A stretch of DNA of 32,180 nt from Candidatus Delongbacteria bacterium (lineage in GTDB: Bacteria; UBA4055), in the NCBI GenBank assembly GCA_016937995.1, contig JAFGVM010000007.1:1-32180 (forward strand), given 5' to 3'. Below are positions 4,766-24,415 of the stretch, one piece after another. The notes beneath the pieces are model-generated. The model saw nothing but the letters and a program-made list of their open reading frames with translations, did not search any database and had not been told where the DNA came from. The translations under genes and the position numbers were made by a program. How positions within the stretch are numbered: position 1 is the first letter of the stretch; each line of letters opens with the position of its first letter.

Positions 4766-5725
4766 TTATTTATCAAAATTGACAAGGTTCCTGATTATAT
4801 AGACCGGTTTGTTCTTGACTTCATCAAAAGTTTTACCAAGATAAAGCCCCAGGACACCTAACGTTAGAATTATTATCCCTGATAAAAACCATATTGAAAC
4901 TATAAGGCTTGGCCATCCGGCTATTAAATAGTCACCTGAAAGTGCCCTTATAAAAAGATATACCGCAAAAACAAATGAAGTTAACGATATGATCATTCCC
5001 AGACCTGTTACCAGCTTCAATGGTTTATTTGATGTTGATATCATTACGTTAAAAGCCAGATGGAGCAGTTTTTTCAGGTCGTAAGATGATCTTCTTGTGT
5101 TGTTCGCATTATGTTCTACCGCTATTGAAGTGGAATTATACCCTACCCATCTGATCAGAACCGGAAAATACCTCAGGTTCTCTTTTAGTTGTTTTACCGA
5201 ATCAATGGCTTTTCTGCTGTATATTCCAAAATTAGCTACAGTTTCGTCTTGTTTTACACCGGTAAGATAGCTCAGGGTTTTATAGAACAACTTTGAAGTT
5301 AATTTTTTTAAAAATCCGTCTTTTCTTAATTCCCTTTTAGCAAAGACTATATCATATCCCTCATGTGCTTTTTTGTACAGGTTCTCTATTTCCTCCGGTC
5401 TATCCTGAAGATCACAATCCATAACAACTATCCAGTCACCTGATGCATGGTTAAGTCCGGCAGAAATAGCATAATGCTGACCGAAATTTCTGGTAAGGTC
5501 GATTCCTTTGACCCGTTTATCTTCCTTTACGGTCTTTTCAATTATTTCCCAGTCATTGTCAGGACTGCCATCGTTTACAAAAATAATTTCAAAAGAATCC
5601 GTCAATTTTTCTATTTCAGCTACCAGTCTTTTATACAGCTCTTCAATACAGTTACTGCATTTATAAGTCGGAGTCACGATCGAAATTTTAATATTATTCA
5701 TATTATTGTCCATCATTTTGCCCAT
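4766..5725 (-). CDS. GT2 polyprenyl-phosphate glycosyltransferase (GtrB/ArnC/DPM1 type)
   Basis: 319 residues. The GT2 fold is clear: SIVTPTYK at 15-22, VNDGSPD at 50-56, and DCDLQDRPEE at 103-112 for the nucleotide-sugar and metal site. TRNFGQHYAISAG (78-90) is typical of the undecaprenyl-phosphate glycosyltransferases GtrB and ArnC. Two C-terminal transmembrane helices (about 240-262 and 272-298) match that subfamily. The expected reaction is transfer of a sugar from UDP-sugar to undecaprenyl phosphate at the inner face of the membrane. It is the last gene after two GT-C-like membrane proteins, which would use the product as donor. The start is uncertain: Met1, Met4, Met5 and Met9 are all possible. 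Confidence 0.88.
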   Translation of the reverse strand: MGKMMDNNMNNIKISIVTPTYKCSNCIEELYKRLVAEIEKLTDSFEIIFVNDGSPDNDWEIIEKTVKEDKRVKGIDLTRNFGQHYAISAGLNHASGDWIVVMDCDLQDRPEEIENLYKKAHEGYDIVFAKRELRKDGFLKKLTSKLFYKTLSYLTGVKQDETVANFGIYSRKAIDSVKQLKENLRYFPVLIRWVGYNSTSIAVEHNANNTRRSSYDLKKLLHLAFNVMISTSNKPLKLVTGLGMIISLTSFVFAVYLFIRALSGDYLIAGWPSLIVSIWFLSGIIILTLGVLGLYLGKTFDEVKNKPVYIIRNLVNFDK

Positions 5726-5740: not shown

Positions 5741-7753
5741 TTAACCATGAATAAAAACCTTAAACATATCGTTTTCGTATTTCAATTTATAATCATTTTT
5801 CTTTACAAAATAAGAAAAATAATCAATCCATTTTAGATGAAATATTTCAGTTGAATCACCTTTCTTTACTGTGGGCCAATATTCAGAACGACCACTTTTC
5901 TTGGCAATAATAACTAGTGAAGGAAAGTTTTCGTTTTTAAAATTTTCTGAAATTTCAAAAAATTTTACAAAATCTTCAATCTCTATCCAAGGAGTATTCA
6001 GAGCAAATTCCTTATCCAGAATGTAATACAACATTGGTATATGATTTACAAAAATTGCCTTATTATTTATCAATTCATATCCTGATAAAAACTTTACTAA
6101 TCCATCTACTGCTTCCACACGTTGAGAAGTACTGAAAATCCCGAAAAGGTTATTTGATTTGAACATCGTTGTCAAATATTTTTTTTCAGAATCTCTATGA
6201 ACTTCGAGAATTACTAGCTTCATGAGTGATATGATCATAACGAATGCAAGAAGAAGAATACTTACTTGAGAACTAGTGATACTTAAATTTTTAGATCGAT
6301 TTTTCTCACTTCGGCCTTCAAAAACTATAACATTCAAAAAGAAAAGCATCGCTCCACCGGACCTGAGTGATGTATTGAATGATAAATTTGAACCTGCAAA
6401 ACTTAATATCAGGACTAAAACAGATCCGATTAGTAAAAGTTTTTTTTGATTATCAATTTTTTTCGTAGTAAAAAGAGAATATGATATAACCGCAAATGCC
6501 AAGGCTATCATAAAATCACAATAAATCAGAATTGAAGTTATGTTATTCAATATCATAACATAGGATGTTAACAAAATAAAAATAAGTTTTAGCCACGGAG
6601 ATCTTATCACAGTTGTAATTTGATATAAGATCAACAAAATAACGCCGATAATAAGTGATACTTTTATAATATTCCAGAAATGTTCAGAATAGATTTTCAT
6701 TAAATAACCTACACCGCTTATATCTGGAGAATTTTTATAGTATTGTTCATTTTTTCTTATCGGTTCTGATCTCATACTATCTGTTAAGAATACATCAAAA
6801 ATGTCATTTTTAGGTTCAAAATTCATCTCAGTATTTTTTTCAAGGGCTGCATGACTGAATGTTTTCAAGTAATTCGTTGATTGTGATAATAAGGATAATA
6901 ATAAAAAGCCTGCAATCATTACGCATAAAACACTTGAATAAATATATTTTAAAGATTTTAACTTTCTTTTTTTAGGCTGATCGCTTTCATAGTATAAGAC
7001 TAGGGGTAAGATTAATGTTAAAATCATTGATATTTTGGCAAATATTGCTAATCCTATAAAACTCCCTGCTAAGATCAGATGTTTTTTACTTATAGACGAG
7101 AATCTTAAATCCTTCAAAATAAGATAAAGTGATCCAATAAGAATCATCGTTGGAAAATTATCATAATTCACAGTAAGGTAGTAATTAAAGTTGATAAAAA
7201 ATACCGAAGTAATAACAATGAACACTAACTTCCTAAAATTGATCTCACAATACAACATTACTGTTTTTACACTGAAGTAAATGATCAATGATACTACGAT
7301 TGAATAACCAACTCTTGCCCATAAGATTGATGGATGTCCAATAATCTTCATCCACAATCCGCTGATAAATGATGTAAGCCATATCATATCAATGTTATTT
7401 GCAATATCACCATTAACTAATGCCCAGGCTTTGGATAAATGATACCCCTGGTCCGTTACATCAAGACTATATTGCACTCTTGACAAAAGGTAAAAGAATG
7501 AATACAGCCATATGAAAAATGAAGATCTTTCTAAAAATCTCTTCCTGTTAAACCTGAAATAAACCACTAGAGAAACAATTATTACTACAAAAAAGTATAG
7601 TGATTTTAGATATAAGAAATTCTTCAAATTAGGATTGATCAAGATTTGCTCATCGAAAATTTGAAAATATGTGAACGGAGCAGTTAATAATAGAGCGATC
7701 AATGCCACAATCACCACAAAAATATCAAGATATTTCTTCCAGGAAGATTTCAT
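5741..7753 (-). CDS. Polytopic GT-C-like membrane protein, paralogue A
   Basis: 670 residues from the ATG at 7753. The longer open frame would start at 7831, inside the upstream gene; the chosen start lies 4 bases after that gene's stop and yields a clean N-terminal helix. Many transmembrane segments fill residues 1-530, and a soluble domain follows. Motifs shared with the two paralogues in this window: TDQG with Asp101 and LSKAW at 106-110 in the first large loop, then LWARVGY, NYDNFP, FAKI, FAGSN with a later RSGG, and GIFSTSQRVEAVD at the start of the C-terminal domain. An acidic residue in the first external loop of a polytopic protein is a hallmark of GT-C glycosyltransferases. The donor is probably the lipid-linked sugar made by the GT2 enzyme encoded downstream. 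The exact substrate is unknown. Confidence 0.75.
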   Translation of the reverse strand: MKSSWKKYLDIFVVIVALIALLLTAPFTYFQIFDEQILINPNLKNFLYLKSLYFFVVIIVSLVVYFRFNRKRFLERSSFFIWLYSFFYLLSRVQYSLDVTDQGYHLSKAWALVNGDIANNIDMIWLTSFISGLWMKIIGHPSILWARVGYSIVVSLIIYFSVKTVMLYCEINFRKLVFIVITSVFFINFNYYLTVNYDNFPTMILIGSLYLILKDLRFSSISKKHLILAGSFIGLAIFAKISMILTLILPLVLYYESDQPKKRKLKSLKYIYSSVLCVMIAGFLLLSLLSQSTNYLKTFSHAALEKNTEMNFEPKNDIFDVFLTDSMRSEPIRKNEQYYKNSPDISGVGYLMKIYSEHFWNIIKVSLIIGVILLILYQITTVIRSPWLKLIFILLTSYVMILNNITSILIYCDFMIALAFAVISYSLFTTKKIDNQKKLLLIGSVLVLILSFAGSNLSFNTSLRSGGAMLFFLNVIVFEGRSEKNRSKNLSITSSQVSILLLAFVMIISLMKLVILEVHRDSEKKYLTTMFKSNNLFGIFSTSQRVEAVDGLVKFLSGYELINNKAIFVNHIPMLYYILDKEFALNTPWIEIEDFVKFFEISENFKNENFPSLVIIAKKSGRSEYWPTVKKGDSTEIFHLKWIDYFSYFVKKNDYKLKYENDMFKVFIHG

Positions 7754-7757
7754 GAAT

Positions 7758-9704
7758 TTACCAGGATAAATTATTATTTTCTTGTTCCAACTTGTAAACA
7801 TAATAAAAAGAATTTGAGAAACACACAACATAATTATTTTCAGCCAGTATCATGTCGTACAGATCGTAATATTTTTGAGCTCGTGCTTCATATACATTAT
7901 TGTTGAACCAACTTTCAGAATAATCAGGCCAAAAAGGATTTCTCTGGGAATGAATCGGTTTTACAATATAATCAGGAGGATTATTCTGCAGATCATTTTG
8001 CAGTGTTTCAAAGTCATTTATCACATCCCATGGGTTATTTGCCGGATAAATCGTTGCTGTCAAATAATAGAATATCGCATTATGCATGGGGTAGAACACT
8101 TTTTTATCAGATATTTCTTCAATCGTTTTCAAATAAATCAAGAGAGAATCTACAACCTCACATCTTTTAGGATTTGATCTTATCCCAAGTAACTCTGTAG
8201 ATGAAAAGCTTCCGTTCAGCTGATGAAAATATAAATCCCTGTAAGGTCTGTAATCCTTCACTGAAAAGAATACTATGAATACTGCAATAGTTGCATAAAC
8301 AAGGTAGTCAAATTTCAGATCCATAAAAAACCTTTCTTCAAGCAGTACTAATAGAAGGAATGACAGAGAAAATATCCCTACACCTGCTCTATAAGCTGTA
8401 GTTATTCCAAGATCACTGCCAAGGAATGAAAAAACAAAAAGAAGGAAGAAAAACAGTATCCGCCAGAGAAAAGTTCCCCTTTTCGATCTACTTATCAATA
8501 CTGCGATAACTACAGTGAGTGATAGAAGATAAGAAGAAATTCCAAGATATAGGTTCGCCCTGTTACCATCAAAGCTGAATATTCTGAAATAGAGGATAAC
8601 TCCTAAAAGAATTGCTATAATATATTTAGCTCCCGGTATTTTTTTAAATTTGAGATTAATCACAGAAGCTAACACTATTGAAAGTACTGTTAAAATTGAG
8701 CCTATACCAATTGAAAATAGCTCTGATAAGTATTTTCTTGTCAAAGTTACAAACGAGTGATCTCTAAGCAGAGAATCAGTCGATTCTCTTCCTGAGTTCA
8801 TCATAAATTCCGATATGATCTTTTCGAAAAATGTATAATAATTTTGTAACCCACCTGAGATTATAAGCAAAGCAATAATAATCACTGTACCAGAAAAAAT
8901 ACCTATGAAATATTCTACAACACTTTTTCTACCTGCTTCTCTTTGATATAAAAAAATGAGAGGTAGGATCAAGACAGGCAGGAAAGTGATCTTGGCAAAA
9001 ATTGCTAAAGTATAGAATATTCCTGAAATGAATATCCTCCAATTCAATTTATCGTTTGAATTCAGATTTGCTACGAGAACCAAATAAACTGAGATCAGGG
9101 AAAGCAATACCGGCAGATTATCATAGTTTATAGTATGATAATACTGCATATAGGATGTTAAAAAAGTCATCAATACCACTATCACCAAAACAAAACTGTT
9201 TTTATAAAAAGTGTGTAATATCTTGTAAGAAAAAAAAACAATTAGAGATTGCACCAAAACAAACCCTACTCTTGCCCATAATAACATTGGTTCTCCGAAC
9301 ATTGCCAACCATAGACCACCTATTATATTCGTACCTGCAACAGCATCTAGATTTTCTTTCCAGAGTCCATGATACATAGCCCATTGCTTACTAAGACTAA
9401 AACCCGTATCTGTTGTTTCATATCCATACGGAATGAAGAATAAATACCAGACAGAAACGGATATGAAAAGGATTAAATCAGTGTATTTATGATAATTCGA
9501 CCTGTTGATAAAAAATAATAACCAGGTTGAAAATAAAGTTACAATAGACCAATATCCGAAAAAATAATAAACTGAAAACATTTCAGCTGGATTGAAATTT
9601 TCGTATACTGGATTGAAAGGTGATTTAATAAACAGCCAGATAACGATCATTCCAATAAATAACAATTTTACATAGTTTGTATATGTTCTTTCAGTGGTGC
9701 TCAT
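7758..9704 (-). CDS. Polytopic GT-C-like membrane protein, paralogue B
   Basis: 648 residues from the ATG at 9704 (MSTTERTY). The open frame extends to 9785, but a promoter lies inside that extension (9732-9760), CAGG at 9710-9713 fits as ribosome-binding site, and the N terminus then matches paralogue C in length (IKSPFNP here, LISPFNQ there). Asp99 in TTDTG and LSKQW at 104-108 form the conserved first-loop motif; LWARVGF, NYDNLP, FAKITF, FLGSD plus RAG, and GIRSNPKRCEVVD follow in the same order as in A. The multi-pass part is followed by a soluble periplasmic-looking C-terminal domain. The role is probably periplasmic sugar transfer from a polyprenyl-linked donor (inference). Confidence 0.75.
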   Translation of the reverse strand: MSTTERTYTNYVKLLFIGMIVIWLFIKSPFNPVYENFNPAEMFSVYYFFGYWSIVTLFSTWLLFFINRSNYHKYTDLILFISVSVWYLFFIPYGYETTDTGFSLSKQWAMYHGLWKENLDAVAGTNIIGGLWLAMFGEPMLLWARVGFVLVQSLIVFFSYKILHTFYKNSFVLVIVVLMTFLTSYMQYYHTINYDNLPVLLSLISVYLVLVANLNSNDKLNWRIFISGIFYTLAIFAKITFLPVLILPLIFLYQREAGRKSVVEYFIGIFSGTVIIIALLIISGGLQNYYTFFEKIISEFMMNSGRESTDSLLRDHSFVTLTRKYLSELFSIGIGSILTVLSIVLASVINLKFKKIPGAKYIIAILLGVILYFRIFSFDGNRANLYLGISSYLLSLTVVIAVLISRSKRGTFLWRILFFFLLFVFSFLGSDLGITTAYRAGVGIFSLSFLLLVLLEERFFMDLKFDYLVYATIAVFIVFFSVKDYRPYRDLYFHQLNGSFSSTELLGIRSNPKRCEVVDSLLIYLKTIEEISDKKVFYPMHNAIFYYLTATIYPANNPWDVINDFETLQNDLQNNPPDYIVKPIHSQRNPFWPDYSESWFNNNVYEARAQKYYDLYDMILAENNYVVCFSNSFYYVYKLEQENNNLSW

Positions 9705-9731
9705 TTTAACCTGATTTAATTCTGCAGTAAA

Positions 9732-9760
9732 ATTATACACCCGCAATAGCGGTTTTACAA
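9732..9760 (-). promoter_or_regulatory. Promoter of the GT-C/GT-C/GT2 operon
   Basis: On the minus strand, TTGTAA (9755-9760), a 17-base spacer and a perfect TATAAT (9732-9737). Transcription would begin near 9725, leaving a leader of about 20 bases before the ATG at 9704. The spacer contains the inverted repeat CCGC-AATA-GCGG (9741-9752), a possible operator. Confidence 0.65.
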
Positions 9761-9881
9761 GTTTATAATTTTTAAAGTACTGCATACCTATAAGAATTCC
9801 GTTTATGAAATTGTTTTCTATTTTATATTTGCATTTTTTGCCTTATACTTAACTGAAAGTAAAATTATAGAAGATCCCGAA

Positions 9882-11546
9882 ATGAAAAAAATTAAAATTA
9901 TCTACATCTTGATCGCAACACTAATTTTAACATGGTTCGTTTTTCTGGCCTTAACACCTATTATTTCAAGGGATGCATTAATTGTTCATATGGCATTCCC
10001 AAAAGTATGGATGAGAGAAAATTTCTTTTTTTATCAGGATTATAATCTTTCAACAGTCTCAATGATGAACCTTGATTACATATATATGTTACTGCTTAAA
10101 TTTTTCCATTGGGACCAGTTGCCAAAAATTTTTCATGCTTCCCTGCTTATCGGATCAGGTGTAATAATGTTCACTTTCCTGAAAAAGAGATTCGGTCTAA
10201 ATACTGCGTTCATATTTTCAGTTATCTTTGTTCTTATACCTATCAATCAGAGACTTGCATCGGAAGCATATGTCGATCTGGGAGTTCTGTTCTTTTCAAC
10301 GATATCTATCATTTATTTTATTAAATGGATCGATTCTGATCTCAACTCCGGAAAATACTTCTTTATATTGGCAGTAAGCTCAGGATTGTCTTTAGGTACT
10401 AAATACAGCAGTGTCATATTGTTGGTCGTAATGACTTTAATGATCGGATCGATCTATGCAAAGAACAAAAAAAAAGACCTGAAAGCATTAAACCACATGG
10501 CCCTTTATGGAATAATTATACTGATCGTAATTTCACCATGGCTTATCCGTAACTATGCTGCAGTAGGAAATCCTTTTTATCCCCTTTTAAATTCAGTATT
10601 CAAACCAGATGTAATAAAATTTGACAGTAATTTAAATATTCCGCCTAACGAGTTCGCGACAAGAAAACTTTTCGGAGAATCTCCGGTATCCATAATACTT
10701 ATCCCGTTCAGAATGTTCTTTTCCGGTAGTGACAGTGATCTTATAGGAGGTTTTGACGGGGTTCTGAATCCTATGCTGCTGTTGATGTTCATTCCTCTTT
10801 TATTCCCAAAATTCAGATCTAAGTCGAAAGACAGATCGATCATAGCATATTTATCCATCGTTTTCCTGATCACATATATTTTCTTTTTGATTCACGGACA
10901 TTTAAGGATCAGATACTTCATTTACAGCCTTCCTTTACTTATTATACTGAATGCTTACACTTTTGATATTTTTAAGAATTTATTATCCGCAAAAAAGTTG
11001 AGGTCCGGTAGTATCATTCTATCCATGATAGTAATACTTTTCATGTTCTTCAATTTAAAATATTCTCTACAACTTTTTAATAAACTGGATACATATAACT
11101 ATTTGAGCGGTAATGAATCAAAAGATGAATACCTCAGCCGAACTCTCTCTGAATATAATGTAGCTAAAAAGATCAATGAAAGAGCTCCTGAAGATGCTGT
11201 TATTTATGAAGTACTCTGCGGGCATAGAACTTACCATATAGACAGAACGGTGGTGTTCGATGACTATTTTCTTGATAGATATTTTTACAATATGATCGAC
11301 ACTGAAGCCACAGACTCTGTATATTTAGACCATTTGAGCCACCTTCCTTTCAAAGATCATAAAAAGGCAGGCTTATTAATGATCAAACCCCATGGCTTTG
11401 CCAATGTGTACAAACAGATATTTTCAGAACAAAGTGATTCTCTTACACAAGTTAAGATCGACAGATTCATTACTTTTCTGAATGGTCAGACTCTTCTTTT
11501 CGACAGTAATGGAACCTTCATATACAAACTGAATAATGACAACTGA
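9882..11546 (+). CDS. ArnT/GT39-like membrane glycosyltransferase
   Basis: 554 residues with about ten or more hydrophobic segments up to residue 400 and a short soluble tail. The first external loop has SRDALIVHMAFPK (29-41) with Asp31 and His36; the RDAL..H..FPK pattern is common in bacterial ArnT/PMT-like GT-C enzymes. LGTKYSS and SPWLIRNYAAVGNPFYP, found later in the protein, also recur in that group. It differs from the three TDxG paralogues and is not closely related to them. It is divergent from the minus-strand GT-C operon, separated by a 177-base region, and is followed 27 bases later by the SGNH esterase gene. The acceptor (lipid A, glycan or protein) cannot be told. I saw no convincing promoter directly upstream. 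Confidence 0.75.
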   Translation: MKKIKIIYILIATLILTWFVFLALTPIISRDALIVHMAFPKVWMRENFFFYQDYNLSTVSMMNLDYIYMLLLKFFHWDQLPKIFHASLLIGSGVIMFTFLKKRFGLNTAFIFSVIFVLIPINQRLASEAYVDLGVLFFSTISIIYFIKWIDSDLNSGKYFFILAVSSGLSLGTKYSSVILLVVMTLMIGSIYAKNKKKDLKALNHMALYGIIILIVISPWLIRNYAAVGNPFYPLLNSVFKPDVIKFDSNLNIPPNEFATRKLFGESPVSIILIPFRMFFSGSDSDLIGGFDGVLNPMLLLMFIPLLFPKFRSKSKDRSIIAYLSIVFLITYIFFLIHGHLRIRYFIYSLPLLIILNAYTFDIFKNLLSAKKLRSGSIILSMIVILFMFFNLKYSLQLFNKLDTYNYLSGNESKDEYLSRTLSEYNVAKKINERAPEDAVIYEVLCGHRTYHIDRTVVFDDYFLDRYFYNMIDTEATDSVYLDHLSHLPFKDHKKAGLLMIKPHGFANVYKQIFSEQSDSLTQVKIDRFITFLNGQTLLFDSNGTFIYKLNNDN

Positions 11547-11573
11547 AAACCAACTATATTAAACTGAAGTTCC

Positions 11574-12926
11574 ATGAAAAAGCTAAATAAAATACTTTTA
11601 GATGCTACGATTGTTACGATAATCTGTTCCGTTTTAATTTTTTTTGTTGTCTTTTTTGCCGGTATCCTGGATTCATTTTTTGGGATTTCTGTAGCAATTA
11701 TAACACTTTTTATTATTTATTTCACCTCTCTGGCTTTAACGTTATGGTTTTTTGGATTATTATACAGATCTGTCAGATCGATAAATGTGAAATATTCAGG
11801 AATAAAAAAAATCATATTTGTTATATTTTTTACAGTGGTGTGGTATGGTAATTCAAAGATCGTAAAATTTTATCTTTTCGTTAATTCTGAGATTGAGAAC
11901 TTTTATGATTATGTTGTTATAGGTGACGGTAAAAGAGATATAGAGGGTCTTGTTTATAAGTTTGACAGAGATCTGGGGTTTGAACCTGTTGAAGATTCTA
12001 AGGGATTTCATATTAAACCTATGAAAGACAAAATACCTGTCAGATACAACAAGTATGGATTTCGTATTCCAACAAAAGACAGATCAAAAGACGAGATCAA
12101 TACTGATCATAAATCTGTTTTATTTCTTGGCTGTTCTTTCACATTCGGTGACGGATGTCTGGCTGAGGAAACTTTCCCTTATGCAGTATGTGATTCAATG
12201 GATATGAACTGTTTAAATGCGGGAGTGTGTGGATACGGTCTTTCACAAATGCTGATAAGGGCTGAATATCTTATCCCGGAATTCAAACCTGATTATGTTG
12301 TAATTCAGTATTCACCTTGGTTGGTAAAAAGAAGCGTTGAACTTTATGCACCAAGCTATATCGGACTGATACCAAATCCTTTTTTTTCCTGTGACAGCAA
12401 CAAAAATGTATCACTTGTAAAACCGCTGTTTGAAACAAATTTATTCAGTTTCGATAAGTTTGAGATCAAAAATAAATACCAGAACGATTATTTATATTTT
12501 TATATGGACTTCGGGATACCTTATGCAATTGATCAATGGAAAGCTGAAAATATAATAGAGGGCAATACTATTCCTGTATGCCATGATATTGACAGGATCG
12601 AAAATTATGCCTATGGTAAAATTATTGAAACTGCTCTGGATAACGAATCAATACCGATCATTTTGAATCTGGGAAACCTCAATTACTCTAAACGATCTGT
12701 CAATTTTTTTTCAAAATTTGAAAAAGTTGAATTCGCTGATGCAGATTCTCTACTCGATTATGAATTAAAATTCTCGGGAACTCAGGACTTTTCCAGAGAG
12801 TATCATCATTGGGTTATGAAAAACGATACACTACACCTTGTTGACAAACATCCTAATCCTAAAGCCCACAAGATAATTGCTGCTTCCATTCTCAAAATAC
12901 TGGAAGATTTGCAAATCAGTAACTGA
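11574..12926 (+). CDS. Membrane-anchored SGNH/GDSL-type hydrolase
   Basis: 450 residues. Three hydrophobic helices lie at about 11-32, 36-64 and 78-92, and the rest is an SGNH domain. FLGCSFTFGDG (184-194) gives catalytic Ser188, NAGVCGYG (215-222) the block II Gly and its loop, and DKHPNPKAH (424-432) the Asp/His pair, with His426 most likely catalytic. This family removes or transfers acetyl and other acyl groups on sugars. Placement between glycosyltransferase genes suggests O-acyl editing of the glycan, probably on the periplasmic face. Two Cys close to the active site (187 and 193) and others (207, 213, 219) are notable but may be unpaired. Function beyond the fold is an inference. Confidence 0.8.
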   Translation: MKKLNKILLDATIVTIICSVLIFFVVFFAGILDSFFGISVAIITLFIIYFTSLALTLWFFGLLYRSVRSINVKYSGIKKIIFVIFFTVVWYGNSKIVKFYLFVNSEIENFYDYVVIGDGKRDIEGLVYKFDRDLGFEPVEDSKGFHIKPMKDKIPVRYNKYGFRIPTKDRSKDEINTDHKSVLFLGCSFTFGDGCLAEETFPYAVCDSMDMNCLNAGVCGYGLSQMLIRAEYLIPEFKPDYVVIQYSPWLVKRSVELYAPSYIGLIPNPFFSCDSNKNVSLVKPLFETNLFSFDKFEIKNKYQNDYLYFYMDFGIPYAIDQWKAENIIEGNTIPVCHDIDRIENYAYGKIIETALDNESIPIILNLGNLNYSKRSVNFFSKFEKVEFADADSLLDYELKFSGTQDFSREYHHWVMKNDTLHLVDKHPNPKAHKIIAASILKILEDLQISN

Positions 12927-12955
12927 TTGACTTGTTATGTCATTTAATTTATATT
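12927..12955 (+). promoter_or_regulatory. Promoter ahead of the GT2 gene at 12987
   Basis: TTGACT (12927-12932), 17 bases, TATATT (12950-12955). It starts directly after the TGA of the SGNH gene. The predicted start of transcription is near 12962, giving a leader of about 25 bases. This separates the GT2/GT2/YbhN genes from the upstream pair as an own transcription unit. Confidence 0.65.
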
Positions 12956-12986
12956 AAACAAAATTGAATTAACCGGTATATAAAAT

Positions 12987-13868
12987 ATGATAAACAGATC
13001 TGTATCTTTAATACTGCCATGCTATAACGAAGAAGAGAGCATAAAGGAAACTTTAGACAGAGTAATTGAGTTCATGCGGTCAAATTTCTCAGATTATGAA
13101 ATAATTGTAGTAAATGATGCTTCAAAGGATAAAACAAGATCTATTCTTGACGAATACAGTGGGATCACTGTTATTGATCATCCGTATAACAAAGGTAACG
13201 GTTCCGCAGTAAAAACAGGCATAAGAAACTCAAAGAAGGACCATGTGTTAATGATGGATTCTGACGGGCAGCATGACATCAATGACATCATACCAATGAT
13301 GGAGCTGCTTGATGTTTATGATTGTGTGGTCGGTTCCAGAACTAAAAGTTCAGAAGGTTCAGTTCATCGAAATCTGGCGAATATATTCTATAACTGGCTA
13401 GCATCCTATGTGACCAGCGTAAAGATTCATGACCTTACAAGTGGTTATAGAGGTTTTAGGACTAATGTGATAAAAAAATTTCTGTACCTATTCCCTAACG
13501 GTTTTTCATATCCTACAACTTCAACTCTGGCTATCATTAAAGCGGGATACAACCTTAAATATCATCCTATCGTAGTAAGTAAAAGAAAGGGAAAGAGTAA
13601 GATCAAGCTGTTCCGAGACGGATTCAGATTTTTGTTAATCATAGTAAAGATCACTATACTATTCTCTCCTTTAAAGGTATTTTTACCCATCAGTCTGGTG
13701 TTTGTCTTCTCAGGTCTTTTTCATATGCTTTATAAAATATTTGTGTTGAATTTGCGTTATACACAATTCACTACTTTTATGATTAGTGTAGGAGTAATTA
13801 TATTTTTAATAGGTCTGTTATCAGAGCAAATATCAACTCTTCGATACGATAAGCTTGAAGAAGATTAA
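12987..13868 (+). CDS. GT2 glycosyltransferase, DPM1-like (polyprenyl-phosphate sugar synthase)
   Basis: 293 residues. ILPCYNEEESI (9-19), VVNDASKD (41-48) and DSDGQH (91-96) are the GT2 motifs; HPYNKGNGSAVKTG (65-78) and DLTSGYRGF match the DPM1/polyprenyl-monophosphomannose synthase branch. Two C-terminal transmembrane helices (about 223-250 and 260-282) follow, as in membrane-bound members. The likely reaction is transfer of a hexose from a nucleotide sugar to a polyprenyl phosphate on the cytoplasmic side. It is the first gene behind the promoter at 12927 and is 20 bases upstream of another GT2 gene. Confidence 0.88.
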   Translation: MINRSVSLILPCYNEEESIKETLDRVIEFMRSNFSDYEIIVVNDASKDKTRSILDEYSGITVIDHPYNKGNGSAVKTGIRNSKKDHVLMMDSDGQHDINDIIPMMELLDVYDCVVGSRTKSSEGSVHRNLANIFYNWLASYVTSVKIHDLTSGYRGFRTNVIKKFLYLFPNGFSYPTTSTLAIIKAGYNLKYHPIVVSKRKGKSKIKLFRDGFRFLLIIVKITILFSPLKVFLPISLVFVFSGLFHMLYKIFVLNLRYTQFTTFMISVGVIIFLIGLLSEQISTLRYDKLEED

Positions 13869-13888
13869 TTTTATTTATTGAGCAAAAA

Positions 13889-14845
13889 ATGGATCATTTA
13901 AAAATATCAGTAATCGTTCCGGTCTATAACGGTGAAGAAACCTTAGAAAAATGCCTGAATGCAATTAGTAAAATCCAATACTCAAAAGATCTTTACGAAG
14001 TGATACTTGTTAATGATGGGTCAACTGATAATACAGAAAAAATAGCTGAAAAATTTGAATTTCTTAAAATTGTCGACTTCAAAGTCAATAAGGGAAGACT
14101 TATTGCAAGAAAGACCGGAGCCGAAAAAGCAAGTTTTAACGAACTGCTTTTTGTGGATTCCAGAATAGAGATCTATGAAGATATCCTTTTAAAAAGAAAT
14201 GAAATCGGGTATTCTCCTCTGATCGCAGGTGATCTGGGTGTGGAAAAGTATTCAAGCATATTCGATACACTTTTTTACCTTATCCGGAAAAAGATCTACA
14301 GCCCATACTTCCCCCAGGTAAATTATAAAGATGAGTTGTGGATCACTTCTGATAATTTTTTTAATGCACCAAAAGGCACAGGATGTTTTTTCATCGACAA
14401 AAATTTATTTCTTGATAATTTACCCGAGGATCTTTCAAAAGATTCGAATGATGATACGAAGATCATGAAGAATATAGTAAATGATAATGTAAAAATACTT
14501 AGACACACGGGTATCAGGTTGAAATATCATCAGAGAAAAGATAACAATATTTATTCCTGGATACACCACAGAGGGAAGATCTGGGCTGACCATTATCTAA
14601 CTTTCGTAAATATTTATTCGATACTTTATTGTCTGGTCTCAATAACTTTTCTGGTACTTTTATTTAACTGTATCGGATCGTTCTTATTTCTTTTTGTTTT
14701 ACTTCTTTTTCTGTTGGGAGTTTACTTAGCAGAGAATGTAAAAGATTTCTTTATTGTGATAAGGTCCCTTCCGGTTCTGGCGGTACTGTTCTACTTTGGA
14801 ACAATTAAAAAATTATCAAAAAACCTTATTAAAAAACTTACTTAA
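13889..14845 (+). CDS. GT2 glycosyltransferase with unusual DSR in place of DxD
   Basis: 318 residues. SVIVPVYNGEETL (7-19) and LVNDGSTDNTE (40-50) are standard GT2 sequences. Where the metal-binding DxD is expected there is FVDSR (88-92), so the third position is Arg92. Two hydrophobic helices near the C terminus (about 240-285) anchor it to the membrane. It probably extends a lipid-linked glycan in the cytoplasm. Its stop overlaps the ATG of the next gene by one base (TAATG). The DSR variant might mean a different donor mode or a weak enzyme; members of GT2 with altered motifs are known, so loss of function should not be assumed. Confidence 0.82.
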   Translation: MDHLKISVIVPVYNGEETLEKCLNAISKIQYSKDLYEVILVNDGSTDNTEKIAEKFEFLKIVDFKVNKGRLIARKTGAEKASFNELLFVDSRIEIYEDILLKRNEIGYSPLIAGDLGVEKYSSIFDTLFYLIRKKIYSPYFPQVNYKDELWITSDNFFNAPKGTGCFFIDKNLFLDNLPEDLSKDSNDDTKIMKNIVNDNVKILRHTGIRLKYHQRKDNNIYSWIHHRGKIWADHYLTFVNIYSILYCLVSITFLVLLFNCIGSFLFLFVLLLFLLGVYLAENVKDFFIVIRSLPVLAVLFYFGTIKKLSKNLIKKLT

Positions 14846-15768
14846 TGAAAAAAATTCTATTCTACATATTATTCACTATCATTTTGCTTTATTTCATTTT
14901 CAACACTAATATTGATTTTTCGGTACTTTCCCGTCTTTCGATTCTTGATTTTATTTATTACAGCCTGATCATACTATCTACTGTTTTACTAACCGCAATA
15001 TCGGTAAAACTGAATTTCTATTTGTACGGGATCAAAGAAAAATTTATTACACTTTATCATTTTACAACTGCCAGTATGTTACTTAATTACATGCCGGGAA
15101 AAGCAGGTATTATTTCTCTCGTTTCGTATTTGAAGATCAAGCATAAACTACCTATCAATAAATATATCTTTGTTTTCATTCTGAATTATACGATAGTCAC
15201 TATCGTCACTTTTATCATGTTCTTTGCTTTTTTATTTGATGATCGAATTTTTATGATATATGAAAAATTTGAATTTTTTAAACTGCTTACAATAGTGGCT
15301 ATTGTGATTATATTCGCTTTCACAGGAGTGTATTTTACCTCCAGATTTAAAGACATTAAAGTTCTGAATTATTTTCATATTTTTATAAGCCATATAAATC
15401 TGGTAAAATTACATTTCAGCAAAATATTGCAGCTTTCTTTCGTAATTTTCCTGGGTATCGTTTTATTCTCCGTAAGGATGTATTTTTCTTTTTCATATGC
15501 GGGTTTGAATATTACTTTTTTCGATAGTCTTATCGTAGGACTGATCGCTAATCTATCTTTCTTCTTATCATTTACTCCTGGCGGTCTGGGTATTAAAGAA
15601 AGCATGATAGGTGGAATATCATATGTTTTATTTGGAAATGCGGAAGTGGGCATACTTGCATCTTTGATCGATAGAGGAATGATGATATTATGGACTGTAG
15701 TTTTAGGATCTTTTTCCATTAAAAAACTTGATCAAAAAATTCGTAGAGAAGTTAAAAAAATTGATTAG
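14845..15768 (+). CDS. UPF0104/YbhN-type membrane protein (LPG-synthase transmembrane-like)
   Basis: 307 residues with about eight transmembrane segments. NYMPGKAGIISLVSYLK (about 85-101) and FTPGGLGIKES (about 246-256) are the paired signature loops of the lysylphosphatidylglycerol-synthase transmembrane family. The soluble aminoacyl-transferase domain of MprF is absent, so it should not be called an LPG synthase. Such stand-alone proteins often lie in glycan loci and are suspected to flip lipid-linked intermediates. It overlaps the preceding GT2 gene by one base and ends 10 bases from the convergent epimerase gene. No terminator hairpin is visible between them. Confidence 0.82.
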   Translation: MKKILFYILFTIILLYFIFNTNIDFSVLSRLSILDFIYYSLIILSTVLLTAISVKLNFYLYGIKEKFITLYHFTTASMLLNYMPGKAGIISLVSYLKIKHKLPINKYIFVFILNYTIVTIVTFIMFFAFLFDDRIFMIYEKFEFFKLLTIVAIVIIFAFTGVYFTSRFKDIKVLNYFHIFISHINLVKLHFSKILQLSFVIFLGIVLFSVRMYFSFSYAGLNITFFDSLIVGLIANLSFFLSFTPGGLGIKESMIGGISYVLFGNAEVGILASLIDRGMMILWTVVLGSFSIKKLDQKIRREVKKID

Positions 15769-15778
15769 CTGAACCCTA

Positions 15779-16864
15779 TCAATTTACAAAATCTTTGCAG
15801 GCGTCTATAACGATATCTGATGGACTCTTATCCAGCTTCAGGAAATCAAATTTGTAGCTATCGAGATCATTGATAAAATTATCGAGTATATTATCATCGA
15901 AATAACTCAGAACAGCATTTCTTCCCAGACCTTCCTGCCTCTCAGTCACATTTCGAAGCAGTATTACAGGTTTGCCGAGATAGTAACATTCTTCCTGATT
16001 ACTTCCTCCGTCACTTACGACAAATCTGGAATGAATTATTAATTTTATGAAATTAAAATAATCGTATCTGTTTCTTAATTCAATATTTGGATCATCCTTC
16101 AACTTTTGATATAGACCATATTTTTTCAGCTTGATCTCTGTCGGTTTGTGCAGAATAAAAATAAGTTTGTGCTTCTCGCTAATTCTTTTCACTGCATGAA
16201 CTATTTTATTGAATGACGAAATATTTCGTAAATTTTCAAACCTGTGGATCGTAACAATACCATATTCGTAGTCAGGTATTTGAATATCAGCTATTGAAGT
16301 TATCGCAGGAAGAGCAAACTTCAATGAGTCATACAGGGTATTTATTTCTGTATTGATCTTCAATCCTTTGTATTTTTTTAAATTTTCGATCGCCCAGTCT
16401 CCAGGGCAGAACATATAGTCTGAAAGTCTGAAAACAAGAACCCTTACCAATTCTTCAGGAAAAGGTTGAAATAGGTTAAAGGATCTCAGCCCGGATTCCA
16501 CGTGACCTACTTTTAGCCCGGATAGCTTAGCCATGATCGCACCTACCAGTGTTGAGACAGTATCTCCGTGAACCAACACAATACCGTTTTTATCATTTTT
16601 GAATATTTTCTTTTTGTTCAGAACGGTATAAAAAAGTAACTTTGCTGACCAGATCATCATCTGAAATACTGATGTAATATCCTTTCCGGAATATATCGTG
16701 TGATCCGGTTCCTTGATCTCAAAATTTTGCAATATGTCATTTATTGTTTCCTTATGCTGACCCGTAGAAATATAATTATATTCAGCACCTCTCATCTTTA
16801 ATATCTTCATGATCGGAGCCATTTTTATAAGCTGGGCTTTAGTCCCTATTACTATGTGTATCAT
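15779..16864 (-). CDS. Divergent non-hydrolysing UDP-GlcNAc 2-epimerase homologue
   Basis: 361 residues, the normal length for WecB. Active-site equivalents are visible: Asp101 in VHGDT, Glu123 in HVESGLRSF, Glu137 in PFPEE, His207 in TIHR, and SDGGSNQEE for UDP binding. The N-terminal loop, normally GTRPE, reads IGTKAQLIK (6-14), so the Arg that contacts the nucleotide is Lys. The insert in SFNLFQPFPEEL is also not canonical. The expected reaction interconverts UDP-GlcNAc and UDP-ManNAc, but the altered loop may mean another UDP-sugar. The gene overlaps the methyltransferase stop by one base, so the two are co-expressed and their products may act on the same sugar. Confidence 0.8.
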   Translation of the reverse strand: MIHIVIGTKAQLIKMAPIMKILKMRGAEYNYISTGQHKETINDILQNFEIKEPDHTIYSGKDITSVFQMMIWSAKLLFYTVLNKKKIFKNDKNGIVLVHGDTVSTLVGAIMAKLSGLKVGHVESGLRSFNLFQPFPEELVRVLVFRLSDYMFCPGDWAIENLKKYKGLKINTEINTLYDSLKFALPAITSIADIQIPDYEYGIVTIHRFENLRNISSFNKIVHAVKRISEKHKLIFILHKPTEIKLKKYGLYQKLKDDPNIELRNRYDYFNFIKLIIHSRFVVSDGGSNQEECYYLGKPVILLRNVTERQEGLGRNAVLSYFDDNILDNFINDLDSYKFDFLKLDKSPSDIVIDACKDFVN

Positions 16865-17709
16865 TATATTTCAACTTTCTTTGTTAATGTTAGGCAAAAA
16901 ACCGTTAAATTAGGCGGCCAGACCGCAAATTTTTCATTTTTGACAACTGATTTGATCTTATAAAATAATTTGGGTAATCTCCACGGTAATAATCTTTTGT
17001 CTATATCTCTTGCTCTGTAAGTCGTAAATACATCCAGTCCATCTATATTTGATCCAAGATCGAACTCTATGTCAGTCCTTTTGTTGAAATAATTCTTCAA
17101 ATAGTCAACAAGTATTTTTCCTTTTTCTACGCTAATATCCCTGGTCCCGTCAATAGAAACATCGAAGGTAACTATCAGGGTTCCCCCAGGTACAAGGACC
17201 CTATAAAATTCTTCAATTATCTTACCGTAATCATCTGTATGCTCTAAGACAGAAATACAGTAGATCAAATTGAACATATTATCATCATATGGAAGATCTC
17301 TAAGATCACCCTGTCTAAACTTGACACTAGATCCATTTTTTATATTGATCGCATTATATTTTCTTTCGAGACCTTTATCCTGATCACAACAATAAATTCT
17401 TACATCCGCATATACTTTATTGAGATAAAAAGAAAAAAATGTTATTCCTGATCCCGCATCAAGTATCGCATGATCAGTAGAGTTACCTATACTTTCTTTT
17501 ATTCTGCTCAAGACATACGGATATTCCCACTGCCTGCTCCATTGGTGTAGAGGATCGTTAACCCATTTTTTCATATAGTTACCCAATATTTTTTTATTGG
17601 ACACTACATAAGAATCGGAGAACTTTTCCATATCCTTATACATTTTGGATTCGAGCAGAGAAAGATAATCTTTAATTTGAGGAAAACCGTCATTTATTTC
17701 ATTTTTCAT
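16864..17709 (-). CDS. Class I SAM-dependent methyltransferase
   Basis: 281 residues. Motif I is ILDAGSG (82-88), followed by an acidic loop at CCDQD (107-111), QGDLRDLPY (133-141), CISVLEHTDD (151-160) and RVLVPGGTLIV (170-180), all typical of the Methyltransf_11 type. The N-terminal 75 residues contain WVNDPLHQWSRQWEYP (49-64), possibly the substrate-binding part. It is co-transcribed with the divergent 2-epimerase, so methylation of a sugar or glycan end is a reasonable guess. It is divergent from the pilin gene and has its own TTGACA promoter with a palindrome in the spacer. Confidence 0.82.
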   Translation of the reverse strand: MKNEINDGFPQIKDYLSLLESKMYKDMEKFSDSYVVSNKKILGNYMKKWVNDPLHQWSRQWEYPYVLSRIKESIGNSTDHAILDAGSGITFFSFYLNKVYADVRIYCCDQDKGLERKYNAINIKNGSSVKFRQGDLRDLPYDDNMFNLIYCISVLEHTDDYGKIIEEFYRVLVPGGTLIVTFDVSIDGTRDISVEKGKILVDYLKNYFNKRTDIEFDLGSNIDGLDVFTTYRARDIDKRLLPWRLPKLFYKIKSVVKNEKFAVWPPNLTVFCLTLTKKVEI

Positions 17710-17749
17710 TTATAACACATTCCTGTTCTGTATTTTGATACACGTTCAT

Positions 17750-17779
17750 AAGGTATTTTAAAATGCCTTTCTTTGTCAA
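17750..17779 (-). promoter_or_regulatory. Promoter with operator-like palindrome for methyltransferase/epimerase
   Basis: On the minus strand, TTGACA (17774-17779), 18 bases, TACCTT (17750-17755). A 20-base palindrome, AAGGTATTTTAAAATGCCTT (17750-17769, one mismatch), covers the -10 and most of the spacer. A dimeric repressor bound here would block RNA polymerase. The predicted leader is about 35 bases. Confidence 0.5.
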
Positions 17780-17847
17780 GAAGAAATGTAACTTACTTCA
17801 AGATTTCACTCAAACGTGTTTAATATGTTAATATTGTTATTTTTTAC

Positions 17848-17876
17848 TTGACAAACTCAAAGATTTTATGTAGTTT
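17848..17876 (+). promoter_or_regulatory. Pilin promoter
   Basis: TTGACA (17848-17853), 17 bases, TAGTTT (17871-17876). The -35 is perfect and the -10 is moderate. Transcription would start near 17883, leaving about 64 bases of leader that end in the strong ribosome-binding site. Confidence 0.6.
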
Positions 17877-17930
17877 GAAAACAAGTTCGCATTTCCATTT
17901 GACGGATTTGCATAAGGACTACTAAAAATA

Positions 17931-17941
17931 AAAGGAGGTGA
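17931..17941 (+). promoter_or_regulatory. Perfect Shine-Dalgarno sequence of the pilin gene
   Basis: AAAGGAGGTGA is fully complementary to the 3' end of 16S rRNA and lies 5 bases before the ATG at 17947. The GTG at 17938 is part of this site and is not the start codon. It is the strongest ribosome-binding site in the window and suggests very high expression. Confidence 0.85.
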
Positions 17942-17946
17942 CAAAA

Positions 17947-18291
17947 ATGAGAAAAGGTTTTACGCTAATTGAAGTATTAGTTGTAGCGGTGATCGTTGCT
18001 ATCTTAGCAGCTGTAGCTATTCCTGCATATAACGGATACATTCAAACTTCTAAGGAAAGAGTTGCAAAGAACACTGCTGGTACTGTAGCTGCTGCTTTAG
18101 CTGCATACTATTCAGACTGGCAAAATTCAAAAGCTACACTTAACGGTTTATCCGCTACTGTAGGTGGAGTAGTTTCGATCCCTGGCAACCCAGTTAAAAT
18201 GCCTGACGATTTCAGCTGTTCAGTAGGTGGTGGTGTTGTACTTTGTACACACGAAGATACTACAGCTTCTGATTCTGTAAGTTGGTACTAA
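17947..18291 (+). CDS. Type IV prepilin (major pilin-like)
   Basis: 114 residues. The class III signal is short: MRKG then FTLIEV, with cleavage after Gly4 and Glu at mature position 5, followed by a hydrophobic helix (5-24) ending in AIPAYNGYI. The helix continues amphipathically to about residue 58. Cys91 and Cys100 probably form the C-terminal disulfide loop, and a short Ser/Thr-rich tail (TTASDSVSWY) ends the protein. It is a compact pilin of the size of Geobacter or PulG-like pilins. The start was chosen because of the perfect Shine-Dalgarno sequence. Own promoter and terminator make it a single-gene unit. No pilus assembly genes occur in the window, so they must be elsewhere. Confidence 0.93.
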   Translation: MRKGFTLIEVLVVAVIVAILAAVAIPAYNGYIQTSKERVAKNTAGTVAAALAAYYSDWQNSKATLNGLSATVGGVVSIPGNPVKMPDDFSCSVGGGVVLCTHEDTTASDSVSWY

Positions 18292-18312
18292 TCATTTAAG
18301 ATTCAAATTTTT

Positions 18313-18339
18313 AAAGGTCGGTTATACCGACCTTTTTTT
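18313..18339 (+). terminator. Intrinsic terminator after the pilin gene
   Basis: A 9-base-pair stem (AAAGGTCGG 18313-18321 with CCGACCTTT 18327-18335) closes over TTATA and runs into seven T (18333-18339). It is 22 bases after the pilin stop and would end most pilin transcripts before the next gene. Confidence 0.92.
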
Positions 18340-18378
18340 GTTTGATCAATTGAATTCATCATAATAGTGAGTTAAGAA

Positions 18379-20283
18379 ATGTTATATAAAGCTTTGAGAA
18401 GATATGAGATCTTAATGATCTCAACCTTTCTTTTTATATGGTTATGCTTAATATCCCCTTTTAACCAGAAAATTATTGACCCGGAACTATCTGTTATAGA
18501 GCTTGAGTTTATATTCTCCAGGTTTCTGGTATTGGTTATATGGGTAATTATTTTTTTGACCGGATACATCCTTTTAAAAAAAAATAAAAAAGATACATTT
18601 TTTCCATTCGTTCTCTGGAACATTATCTTCTTTCTCCTGACATTCACTTTCAATATCGGATTTGATCTAACAGATGAAGGTTGGCAGTTATCCAAATCCT
18701 GGTGGTCCATTCATGGAAATACTACCGGAAACTTCGATCTTATATGGGGATCTTCTTTTATTAACGGGTTATGGATGTCTATTCCCTCCAGAGTATCGTT
18801 GATCTGGTCCCGGTTCGGGTTTCTGCTTTTTTTCCCTTTTTTTTCAACTGTGATCTATTACATTTTAAAAAGATATTATGCCGGAAAGTACGTTTTCTGG
18901 GGAGTAGTAATATCTTTTTTATTCTTCTATAGAAATTTTTTGATCTATCCATATATTAACTACTATTACCTTCCGGTTTTTTTTGTTTTGCTTTCGATCT
19001 TATTTCTCCTTAATTATGAAGATAACCTTAAGCTCAAACACCTGATCTTAAGCGGTTTATTTGCAGGTATTTCTATTCATATGAAATTCACCTTTATCCT
19101 TATCTTACCGGTCTATGGTATTTATCTTACCCTGTTTGAAGTTGATAATCCTAACAAAAAAAGATCGGTCATTATTTATTATTCAGCATTATTATCTGCT
19201 TTGATAACAGGATTTATTATTCTTACTTTCGCAGGATCAGATACATTTTTCGACAAAGACAGCAGGCTTTCTATCCTTACTATGTTCAACACATTCTTCG
19301 GCAGTAAAAAGATCAACAGTAGTTTAAACTATTCATTTATACACCTTACCTATGTATATTCAAAAGACCTTGGAGTAATGATACTGCATTTGATCGTACC
19401 TTTAATTCTGTTCATTTCCGGAGCTGTTTTATCCAAAAAATATATTTTCCTCAAATATTTTTCATGGCTCCTAATTGGCATATTGCTTATTGTGTATAAA
19501 GAACAGACTGATAATAACTTTTTGCTGGTAGTATCAATATTTTTTGCACTTGATATTATTCTGACCGCACTACACGGATCAAAAAACAGGGAGATCTTTA
19601 AACTGAACTATATGTTCCTGTACGTATTTTTTGTGTCATTTCTGGGATCAGGAATGAGTATTTATGCAGCTTTGATATCCGGTGGGCTATTCGGATTTTC
19701 TGCCTTCATCATAACTGCTTTGTTATCTGTAAGACCGGAGAAGCTGGATTTCAGGATACTAGTTTATTCGCTCATTGTTTTTATTCTGGTCATTCAGTTT
19801 AAAAAAGAGTTCGTCGCATACAGAGATATTGAATCCAGATATTTGAACGCTATGTTCAAAAGCCCCGAGCTTTCAGGTATTTATTCATTCAAAGAAAGAG
19901 TTGATGTCGTCGATGAATTTATTTCAAATGCTAAAAAGATAATTTCTAAGGATGATAAAGTATTTATTGTCGGGATGCCTATGTTTTATTATATTCTGAA
20001 TATTGAACCGGTCATTTCTGAACCTTACGACCTTATCCTGGGACTGGATCAATTGAAGGAAGAGATCAAAGAACAAGATCCTAGTGTAATTATTACTCCG
20101 GTCCAGTCTCCAAGAGGAGTATACTGGCCGCTTGAAAGGAACATCAGCTTCTCTTTGAAGGATAAGTTTGAGATATCAACAAGGAAATATCACGAATTTT
20201 ATGGTTCGTATATTTCTGAAAATGGACTTATCAAAGTATTTTCCAACTCAATGTTCCAGATCTACAAAAAGGAGAGCCAATAA
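18379..20283 (+). CDS. Polytopic GT-C-like membrane protein, paralogue C
   Basis: 634 residues. It shares the motif order of paralogues A and B: Asp99 in LTDEG, LSKSW at 104-108, NGLWMS and IWSRFGF, NYYYLP, MKFTF, FLGSG, then GIYSFKERVDVVD before a soluble C-terminal domain that ends with FSNSMFQIYK (B ends similarly with FSNSFYYVYK). The Asp of NYDN is replaced by Tyr here, and the Arg after the FLGS motif is Ile, so some family positions are not kept. It lies 39 bases after the pilin terminator and directly abuts the next gene. A role as a glycosyltransferase or an oligosaccharyltransferase acting on pilin is possible but unproven. Expression may depend on readthrough, since the only promoter-like pair nearby leaves almost no leader. 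Confidence 0.75.
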   Translation: MLYKALRRYEILMISTFLFIWLCLISPFNQKIIDPELSVIELEFIFSRFLVLVIWVIIFLTGYILLKKNKKDTFFPFVLWNIIFFLLTFTFNIGFDLTDEGWQLSKSWWSIHGNTTGNFDLIWGSSFINGLWMSIPSRVSLIWSRFGFLLFFPFFSTVIYYILKRYYAGKYVFWGVVISFLFFYRNFLIYPYINYYYLPVFFVLLSILFLLNYEDNLKLKHLILSGLFAGISIHMKFTFILILPVYGIYLTLFEVDNPNKKRSVIIYYSALLSALITGFIILTFAGSDTFFDKDSRLSILTMFNTFFGSKKINSSLNYSFIHLTYVYSKDLGVMILHLIVPLILFISGAVLSKKYIFLKYFSWLLIGILLIVYKEQTDNNFLLVVSIFFALDIILTALHGSKNREIFKLNYMFLYVFFVSFLGSGMSIYAALISGGLFGFSAFIITALLSVRPEKLDFRILVYSLIVFILVIQFKKEFVAYRDIESRYLNAMFKSPELSGIYSFKERVDVVDEFISNAKKIISKDDKVFIVGMPMFYYILNIEPVISEPYDLILGLDQLKEEIKEQDPSVIITPVQSPRGVYWPLERNISFSLKDKFEISTRKYHEFYGSYISENGLIKVFSNSMFQIYKKESQ

Positions 20284-21255
20284 ATGAAAATCATTATAAC
20301 AGGTGTAGCAGGATTCATCGGATCCAACCTTGCAAAAACCCTTCTGGACAGAGGTCATGAGATAATTGGTATTGATAATCTGAGCTATGGATTAGAAAGA
20401 AACATTCAAGATTTCAGGGACCATCCTAAATTTAAATTCGTTTTCGGTGACATCGCCAATCCACTGATATTAAAGGACTTTCATTCTGAAATAATAATTC
20501 ATCTGGCTTCACAAAAAATACCAAGATATACAAATGCTCTAAGAACTCTCGATGAAAATTATCTTATGCTAAGAAACATAATCCAGAAATGTATTCTGGA
20601 CAGATCTAAAATAATCTTTGCTTCAACTTCGGATGTTTACGGTAAGAACGAAAAAGTTCCTTTTCATGAGGAATCTGATCTGGTACTGGGTTCAACAACA
20701 ATAAAAAGGTGGGCATACGCATCATCAAAGATTTATGGAGAACAATATATCATTGCCAACAGTGAAGAATATGGATTAAAATATACCATCGGAAGATTTT
20801 TCGGCAGTTATGGTCCGAATCATAATTTAACATGGTGGGGCGGTCCTCAATCAGGATTTATCACAAAGGCGTTGGAAAATGAAGAGATCGAAATTCATGG
20901 GGACGGAAGTCAGACAAGAACGTTCACCTATGTTGATGATACTGTAGATGCTCTGGTAAAATTTGTAGAAAATAACAGCTCTGACAATGAGATCTTCAAT
21001 ACCGGCTCTAATCCGGACGAGGAAATTTCTATACTCGGTCTGGGAAAACTTATCTGGAAACTGGTTAACGGAGAAAATTCCGAACCTAAATTCAAATATA
21101 TACCTTACTCATCATTTGGTAAGTACGAAGATGTTATGAGACGGGTTCCTGACATATCCAAATTGAAACAATTTTTTAATTTTGATCCTCAATATTCTCT
21201 TGAAGAAGGATTGAAAAAAACGATCGAATGGCAAAGGAAATTACTTGGAAAATAA
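20284..21255 (+). CDS. NAD-dependent nucleotide-sugar epimerase/dehydratase (SDR, GalE-like)
   Basis: 323 residues. Rossmann motif GVAGFIG (7-13), Asp31 in GIDNLS for the NAD ribose, Ser/Thr at 114-116 (ASTSDVYG), and the catalytic Tyr145 and Lys149 in YASSK. GRFFGSYGPNH and GDGSQTRTFTYVDD are typical of UDP-sugar 4-epimerases, 4,6-dehydratases and UDP-glucuronate decarboxylases; no feature here decides which. It acts in the cytoplasm to make a nucleotide sugar for the locus. AAAGGAG at 20268-20274 lies 9 bases before the ATG, which follows the previous stop without a gap. The next gene starts inside its end. Confidence 0.88.
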   Translation: MKIIITGVAGFIGSNLAKTLLDRGHEIIGIDNLSYGLERNIQDFRDHPKFKFVFGDIANPLILKDFHSEIIIHLASQKIPRYTNALRTLDENYLMLRNIIQKCILDRSKIIFASTSDVYGKNEKVPFHEESDLVLGSTTIKRWAYASSKIYGEQYIIANSEEYGLKYTIGRFFGSYGPNHNLTWWGGPQSGFITKALENEEIEIHGDGSQTRTFTYVDDTVDALVKFVENNSSDNEIFNTGSNPDEEISILGLGKLIWKLVNGENSEPKFKYIPYSSFGKYEDVMRRVPDISKLKQFFNFDPQYSLEEGLKKTIEWQRKLLGK

Positions 21256-24293: not shown

Positions 24294-24415
24294 AATACAG
24301 CAGATGCATTCTATATATGGGTTTATCGTAAAATAATTATTCTGTAGCAAAAAGGATCAAATATTCATATCTTTGTAAATTAAAAGTCTTAAATTAAATA
24401 CAGAGTGAGGTGATC

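Follow-up and report, generated by a model that had tools for sequence, protein, structure and literature searches.

The stretch of DNA analyzed here, hereafter the window, comprises 32,180 nucleotides from a Candidatus Delongbacteria bacterium (assembly GCA_016937995.1, contig JAFGVM010000007.1, positions 1 to 32,180 of the forward strand) and encodes three paralogous GT-C-like membrane proteins, A, B, and C. As listed in Table 1, the gene for C is directly preceded by a type IV pilin gene and an intrinsic terminator and is followed by probable donor-sugar genes. A preliminary description, made from the sequence alone, had pointed to the three proteins; its open reading frames of 634 to 670 residues are all present, and the signature Asp that it placed at residue 99 to 101 is D101 in A and D99 in both B and C. 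It had missed the pilin gene, the terminator, and the lipid-sugar donor cassette around C, which point to an acceptor. An alternative start for A at 7831 would yield 696 residues and overlap B.

Table 1. Features of the window and their assignments
Feature	Position	Strand	Remarks
GT2 of PgfS/ArnC type	4766..5725	-	228 bits with NCBIfam PgfS and 195 bits with ArnC, neither reaching cut-off; 15 bp 3′ of A; proposed donor-lipid synthase of A and B
Paralog A	5741..7753	-	670-residue polytopic protein; GT-C signature D101, NYDN, soluble C-terminal domain; clade A
Paralog B	7758..9704	-	648 residues; clade B, orthologs in G005 and G011
Protein D, separate GT-C-like family	9882..11546	+	hhalign against PMT_2 98.8%; weak NCBIfam LIC_10190 match
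GT2, dolichyl/polyprenyl-phosphate sugar synthase type	12987..13868	+	in the island around C
LPG_synthase_TM flippase-like membrane protein	14845..15768	+	PF03706; in the island around C
Short type IV pilin/pilin-like gene	17938..18291	+	PF07963, 6.9e-9; prepilin motif; directly upstream of C; probable acceptor
Intrinsic terminator hairpin	18313..18335	+	10-bp stem and T run in the pilin-C gap; fold z-score -4.6 (window)
Paralog C	18379..20283	+	634 residues; clade C, orthologs in G003, G005, and G011; Tyr for the Asp of NYDN
NAD-dependent sugar-nucleotide epimerase/dehydratase	20284..21255	+	PF01370; begins directly after C
UDP-GlcNAc 2-epimerase, WecB-like	21245..22339	+	TIGR00236, 288.9 bits, above cut-off
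GT2, weakly similar to polyprenyl-phosphate sugar synthases	22352..23074	+	probable donor-lipid synthase of the C cassette
GtrA/DPMS transmembrane protein	23080..23511	+	PF04138, 1.9e-15; proposed lipid-sugar flippase

BLASTP E values of 8e-34 to 8e-55 show that A, B, and C are homologous and not alike by chance: A and B match with E = 8e-34 (best local stretch, residues 2 to 287), and C aligns at full length with A (E = 1e-46) and with B (E = 8e-55) at 27 to 30% identity. The motifs TD-x-G-x2-LSK-x-W, NYxxxP, SF-x-GS, and GI-x-S-x3-R...VD occur in the order reported earlier, except that the spacing given as R-x4-VD is in fact R-x3-VD. The TDxGxxLSKxW signature holds for the three paralogs, but their orthologs differ at the T of TD (AD, MD) and at the S of LSK (LAK, IAK). 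With the orthologs added, the nearly invariant positions (C numbering) are D99, G101, K106, W108, N118, D120, G130-L131-W132, W143, G147, Y190, N194, Y195, and P199.

The genome of the window has exactly three copies of the family. Full-length relatives are present in 5 of the 13 genomes from its phylum, which represent one family and seven genera (in G003, a contig end truncates the gene), and in none of the ∼370 other genomes of a 386-genome search. This search also returned ∼18 weak matches (E 1e-3 to 1.6e-7) that covered the profile incompletely, and all five that were inspected by eye were GT-C-like proteins; the viral contigs searched held no relatives. The tree resolves three clades, namely, C (the window's genome G000, G003, G005, and G011; support 100/100), B (G000, G005, and G011; 100/99), and A (G000 and G001; 91/92), and because these span the genera, the triplication predates them. 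The C ortholog of G011 (L012:2430-4367) contains an in-frame TAG, which marks either a pseudogene or an assembly error.

The scores of A, B, and C stay below the cut-off of every Pfam and NCBIfam model, and NCBIfam gave nothing meaningful, in agreement with the earlier statement that the proteins cannot be assigned to a named GT-C family. In the Pfam scan, C scored 22.0 bits (E 2e-4) against PMT_2 (PF13231), below the curated cut-off of 26.1 bits, and A and B had no PMT_2 match. PMT_2 was matched by 3 of 10 family rows, the best being an ortholog (E 5e-6). Profile-profile comparison by hhalign aligned the family with PMT_2 proteins of other genomes with a probability of 95.4 (E 1.7e-8) over columns 93 to 276, in C residues; the reversed profile reached 4.4%, and ten locally shuffled profiles reached at most 0.3%. 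Single clades gave 96% (C), 96% (B), and 90% (A), and a smaller second PMT_2 set gave 92.6% (columns 128 to 278). The PMT_2 proteins in turn match ArnT (5ezm) with E 2.4e-54, and bridging through them equates D99 with ArnT D55, the invariant Lys K236 with K203, and the Asp of NYDN with D158 (the 5ezm_A chain numbering in the alignment output is offset by 3). A PDB sequence search with the family profiles found nothing.

A conserved Asp in the first external loop is the catalytic pattern of GT-C enzymes. D99 is present in every member that covers the site and aligns with the Asp of the PMT_2 DE motif, the counterpart of ArnT D55, so the earlier placement of this residue as a GT-C-like catalytic Asp agrees with the alignment. 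The comparisons support A, B, and C as a GT-C-like family related to PMT_2/ArnT and nameless in Pfam and NCBIfam. Of the "new branch" proposed before, what stands is a phylum-restricted family that falls among the PMT_2-like members of the GT-C superfamily and does not form a kind of its own. It differs from PMT_2/ArnT in scoring below the Pfam cut-off, in its restriction to the phylum, in its C-terminal domain, and in the position of the Asp, which lies behind three predicted membrane helices instead of one. Simple hydropathy gives ∼14 segments and places D99 after the third, in a 50-residue loop that is predicted to be periplasmic; relative to ArnT, the family therefore has an apparent N-terminal extension.

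The first Asp is common to all the GT-C transferases identified in a study that also describes ArnT D158 and K203 as contacting the sugar (PMC7801869). A and B retain the equivalents of D55, D158, and K203, and C has Tyr in place of D158. The loss of this Asp from C, as already described, extends to 4 of 4 clade C members (NYYY or NYYT); since every member has it, the change is a property of the clade and not decay, and decay of paralog C was rejected as an explanation because the substitutions are clade-wide. The later Arg, also reported as lost, is indeed gone in all three clade C members that cover the site (LISGG versus LRSGG/YRAGV), but B orthologs carry His there, so it is no general residue of the family. 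From these differences the preliminary description had suggested that the copies may use different acceptors. Because the lost Asp aligns with the sugar-contacting D158, a different donor sugar is an equally good guess. The Tyr might also mean that clade C has lost the ability to transfer sugar and serves as a regulator or an acceptor-binding subunit. We consider this highly improbable: the clade retains D99, D120, and K236 at every site that its sequences reach, and no paralog has a more complete donor cassette than C.

We next turn to the surroundings of the genes. A pilin gene lies directly 5′ of C on the same strand in the window, G003, G005, and G011, and directly 5′ of A in G001; the C-pilin adjacencies share synteny, and that of A in G001 is a separate arrangement. 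Genes with a prepilin motif number 2 to 8 per genome in the five family genomes, so that among an estimated ∼2,300 genes per genome, chance adjacency would have a frequency of ∼0.1 to 0.4% per case. In G003, a broken second pilin copy (L015:2872-2979) lies between the intact pilin and C genes. The terminator is found 19 to 25 nucleotides past the pilin stop codon in all six readable locus pilins, with three differing stem sequences in which pairing is kept, and in none of seven control pilin-like genes. It is expected to attenuate rather than abolish expression of C. PilB/PilT-type ATPases are present.

The locus pilin occurs in 5/5 family genomes, and the family in 0/6 genomes that lack this pilin (one-sided p 0.016). 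Protein D is directly 5′ of the pilin in G005, G008, G010, and G011 and 6 kb from it in the window; direct kinship of D with the A-B-C family was not supported (hhalign 23%). Members of A-B-C and/or D are present in 7/7 genomes with the locus pilin versus 0/6 without it (p 0.0006, not corrected for relatedness and with the pilin class defined post hoc, after the loci had been seen).

On its 3′ side, C is followed, almost without gaps, by genes for the epimerase/dehydratase, the WecB-type 2-epimerase, a GT2, and GtrA, so that C (18379), GT2 (22352), and GtrA (23080) form the three-component arrangement of the Gtr systems in one cluster. A and B are 4 bp apart, and B, A, and the adjacent GT2 gene are therefore probably one operon; in G001, a similar GT2 gene is located 1 kb past the A gene, behind a methyltransferase gene.

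From the homology of the three proteins, their relation to PMT_2, the residue equivalences, the gene order, and the terminator, we infer an activity, a type of donor, and an acceptor as follows. Working at the outer face of the inner membrane, A, B, and C would each move one sugar from a polyprenyl-phosphate donor to a periplasmic acceptor, and their active site would contain the invariant Asp of the first-external-loop type (D99 in C, D55 in ArnT). The C cassette would be nearly complete: the two sugar-nucleotide enzymes would make the sugar, the GT2 would load it onto the lipid, GtrA would flip it, and C would transfer it, the likeliest acceptor being the pilin encoded directly upstream. The terminator behind the pilin gene would keep the pilin far above the enzyme in abundance. 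A and B may work likewise with the PgfS/ArnC-like GT2 encoded beside them, their acceptor being the same pilin or another surface glycan. That the three proteins are GT-C transferases using polyprenyl-phosphate sugars, and that the adjacent pilin is the likeliest target of C, is a reading that we favor with moderate confidence. C, at least, probably glycosylates its neighboring pilin; the roles of A and B are less certain.

Several findings weigh against this interpretation. In the window, A and B are 8 to 12 kb distant from the pilin gene. G008, and G010 within its short contig, have a close pilin (65 to 69% identical) without A, B, or C, which are thus dispensable for the pilin, and the presence of C does not track pilin type. 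Kinship of the genomes makes the counts non-independent. The pilin gene belongs to an island where glycan genes abound, and its adjacency to them may stem from this setting; the island also holds several further glycosyltransferase genes, methyltransferase genes, and a second 2-epimerase-like gene. The B ortholog of G011 (L013:1688-4546) adjoins NeuB-, NeuC-, and NeuA-like genes of a nonulosonic acid pathway. These last two points, and the GT2 and GtrA genes beside C, which are the classic gtr arrangement (PMC11127046), would fit with enzymes that work in the manner of the three-component Gtr systems and decorate a surface polysaccharide (side branches of an O-antigen-like polymer or of an exopolysaccharide), with the pilin as a bystander. 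We regard this as possible but doubtful, since no Wzx, Wzy, or O-antigen ligase was recognized among the scanned island proteins, the terminator is at a fixed distance in every readable genome, and the pilin adjoins a GT-C gene in seven genomes (C in the window, G003, G005, and G011; A in G001; D in G008 and G010, as well as in G005 and G011; D at 6 kb in the window is not counted).

Structure prediction, proposed earlier as a check on the GT-C fold, adds a further point against glycosyltransferase activity. AlphaFold2 models with C and B each as the lead sequence of a four-row alignment had a mean predicted local distance difference test (pLDDT) score of 48 in both cases, too weak to show a fold. 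Foldseek searches of both models against the PDB gave no significant match; in a second search, Stt3 and Pmt4 were among the highest-probability matches, as the best GT-C matches, at template modeling (TM) scores of ∼0.25 and E >0.05, and were not counted as evidence. Together with the curated models, all under cut-off, and the precedent of pilin-adjacent accessory proteins that are not enzymes (TfpY, PMC11841053), this leaves room for polytopic proteins of another kind, that is, a flippase, a TfpY-like pilus assembly accessory, or a polymerase. The PMT_2 profile match with its strong controls, the aligned catalytic Asp and Lys columns, and the tight linkage with GT2 and GtrA genes make such a function improbable.

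The gene order resembles that of the Pseudomonas aeruginosa TfpW (group IV pilin arabinosyltransferase) and TfpO cassettes, in which a glycosyltransferase gene is directly 3′ of the pilin gene with an intrinsic terminator between them, an arrangement that is seen here for C in four genomes and for A in one. In P. aeruginosa, the pilin-accessory cassettes, including those of the pilin glycosyltransferases TfpO and TfpW, share the same terminator, which is proposed, and partly shown, to hold the ratio of pilin to accessory protein (PMC11841053). Unlike there, the cassette here contains donor-lipid genes, and in several genomes the pilin is also flanked by D, which represents a second GT-C family. 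In Streptococcus mutans, cnm-terminator-pgfS-pgfM1-pgfE is a proven target-plus-machinery operon that is cotranscribed despite the terminator (PMC5856776). Its Pgf system (PgfS, PgfM1, PgfE, and PgfM2) likewise brings together a target gene, a terminator, a GT2, a PMT_2-type membrane protein, and an epimerase, and the GT2 next to A scores best with PgfS; the Pgf targets are Gram-positive adhesins, whereas here the candidate is a pilin, accompanied by GtrA and a 2-epimerase. Gtr O-antigen glucosylation and GT136 share the logic of lipid-sugar synthase, flippase, and GT-C enzyme (PMC11127046), but their acceptor is a polysaccharide, and here sugar-nucleotide genes and a pilin are in the cassette. 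YfhO (PF09586) is also a polytopic protein paired with a CsbB-type GT2, but it gave no match at E 1 in our Pfam scans.

The pilin and D genes of G008 occupy the same chromosomal place and have the right-hand neighbors seen in the window, yet the C cassette is missing; it hence seems to be an optional extra on a pilin-D unit that is itself conserved. The order of the right flank (24410-31885: the 24410 open reading frame, AcpS, PrfB, a radical SAM protein, and a flippase-like gene) is conserved in G008, and the left part is therefore a variable island at a fixed site. The contigs of G003, G010, and G011 break off within the island. Next to D, positions 11574-12926 (+) encode a 450-residue membrane-anchored protein without a Pfam match, whose FLGCSFTFGDG motif is suggestive of an esterase of the SGNH/GDSL type, perhaps one that acts on glycan acyl groups. 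A subtilase with a Por_Secre_tail C-terminal sorting domain is encoded at 2509-4227 (-), suggesting a type IX secretion system in the phylum. A bolder view of the locus, which we think rather unlikely, is an island for pilin glycosylation that is specific to the phylum, where as many as four GT-C enzymes (the three paralogs and the unrelated D) and dedicated lipid-sugar donor genes would build a multi-sugar glycan directly on one pilin, with A, B, and C as a new CAZy glycosyltransferase family and with an altered sugar site in clade C.

The literature searched gave no description of the family, of its host phylum, or of a combined pilin-enzyme-donor cassette. The type of system is known; what is new is the family and the variant, not the chemistry. 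GT-C enzymes are difficult to identify by sequence, and what they glycosylate is seldom known. With its probable acceptor and its donor genes encoded alongside, this GT-C family would offer a module for protein glycosylation that is self-contained and open to testing, from a phylum that is uncultured, and it suggests that cassettes for pilin glycosylation like those of Pseudomonas have emerged in other lineages as well.

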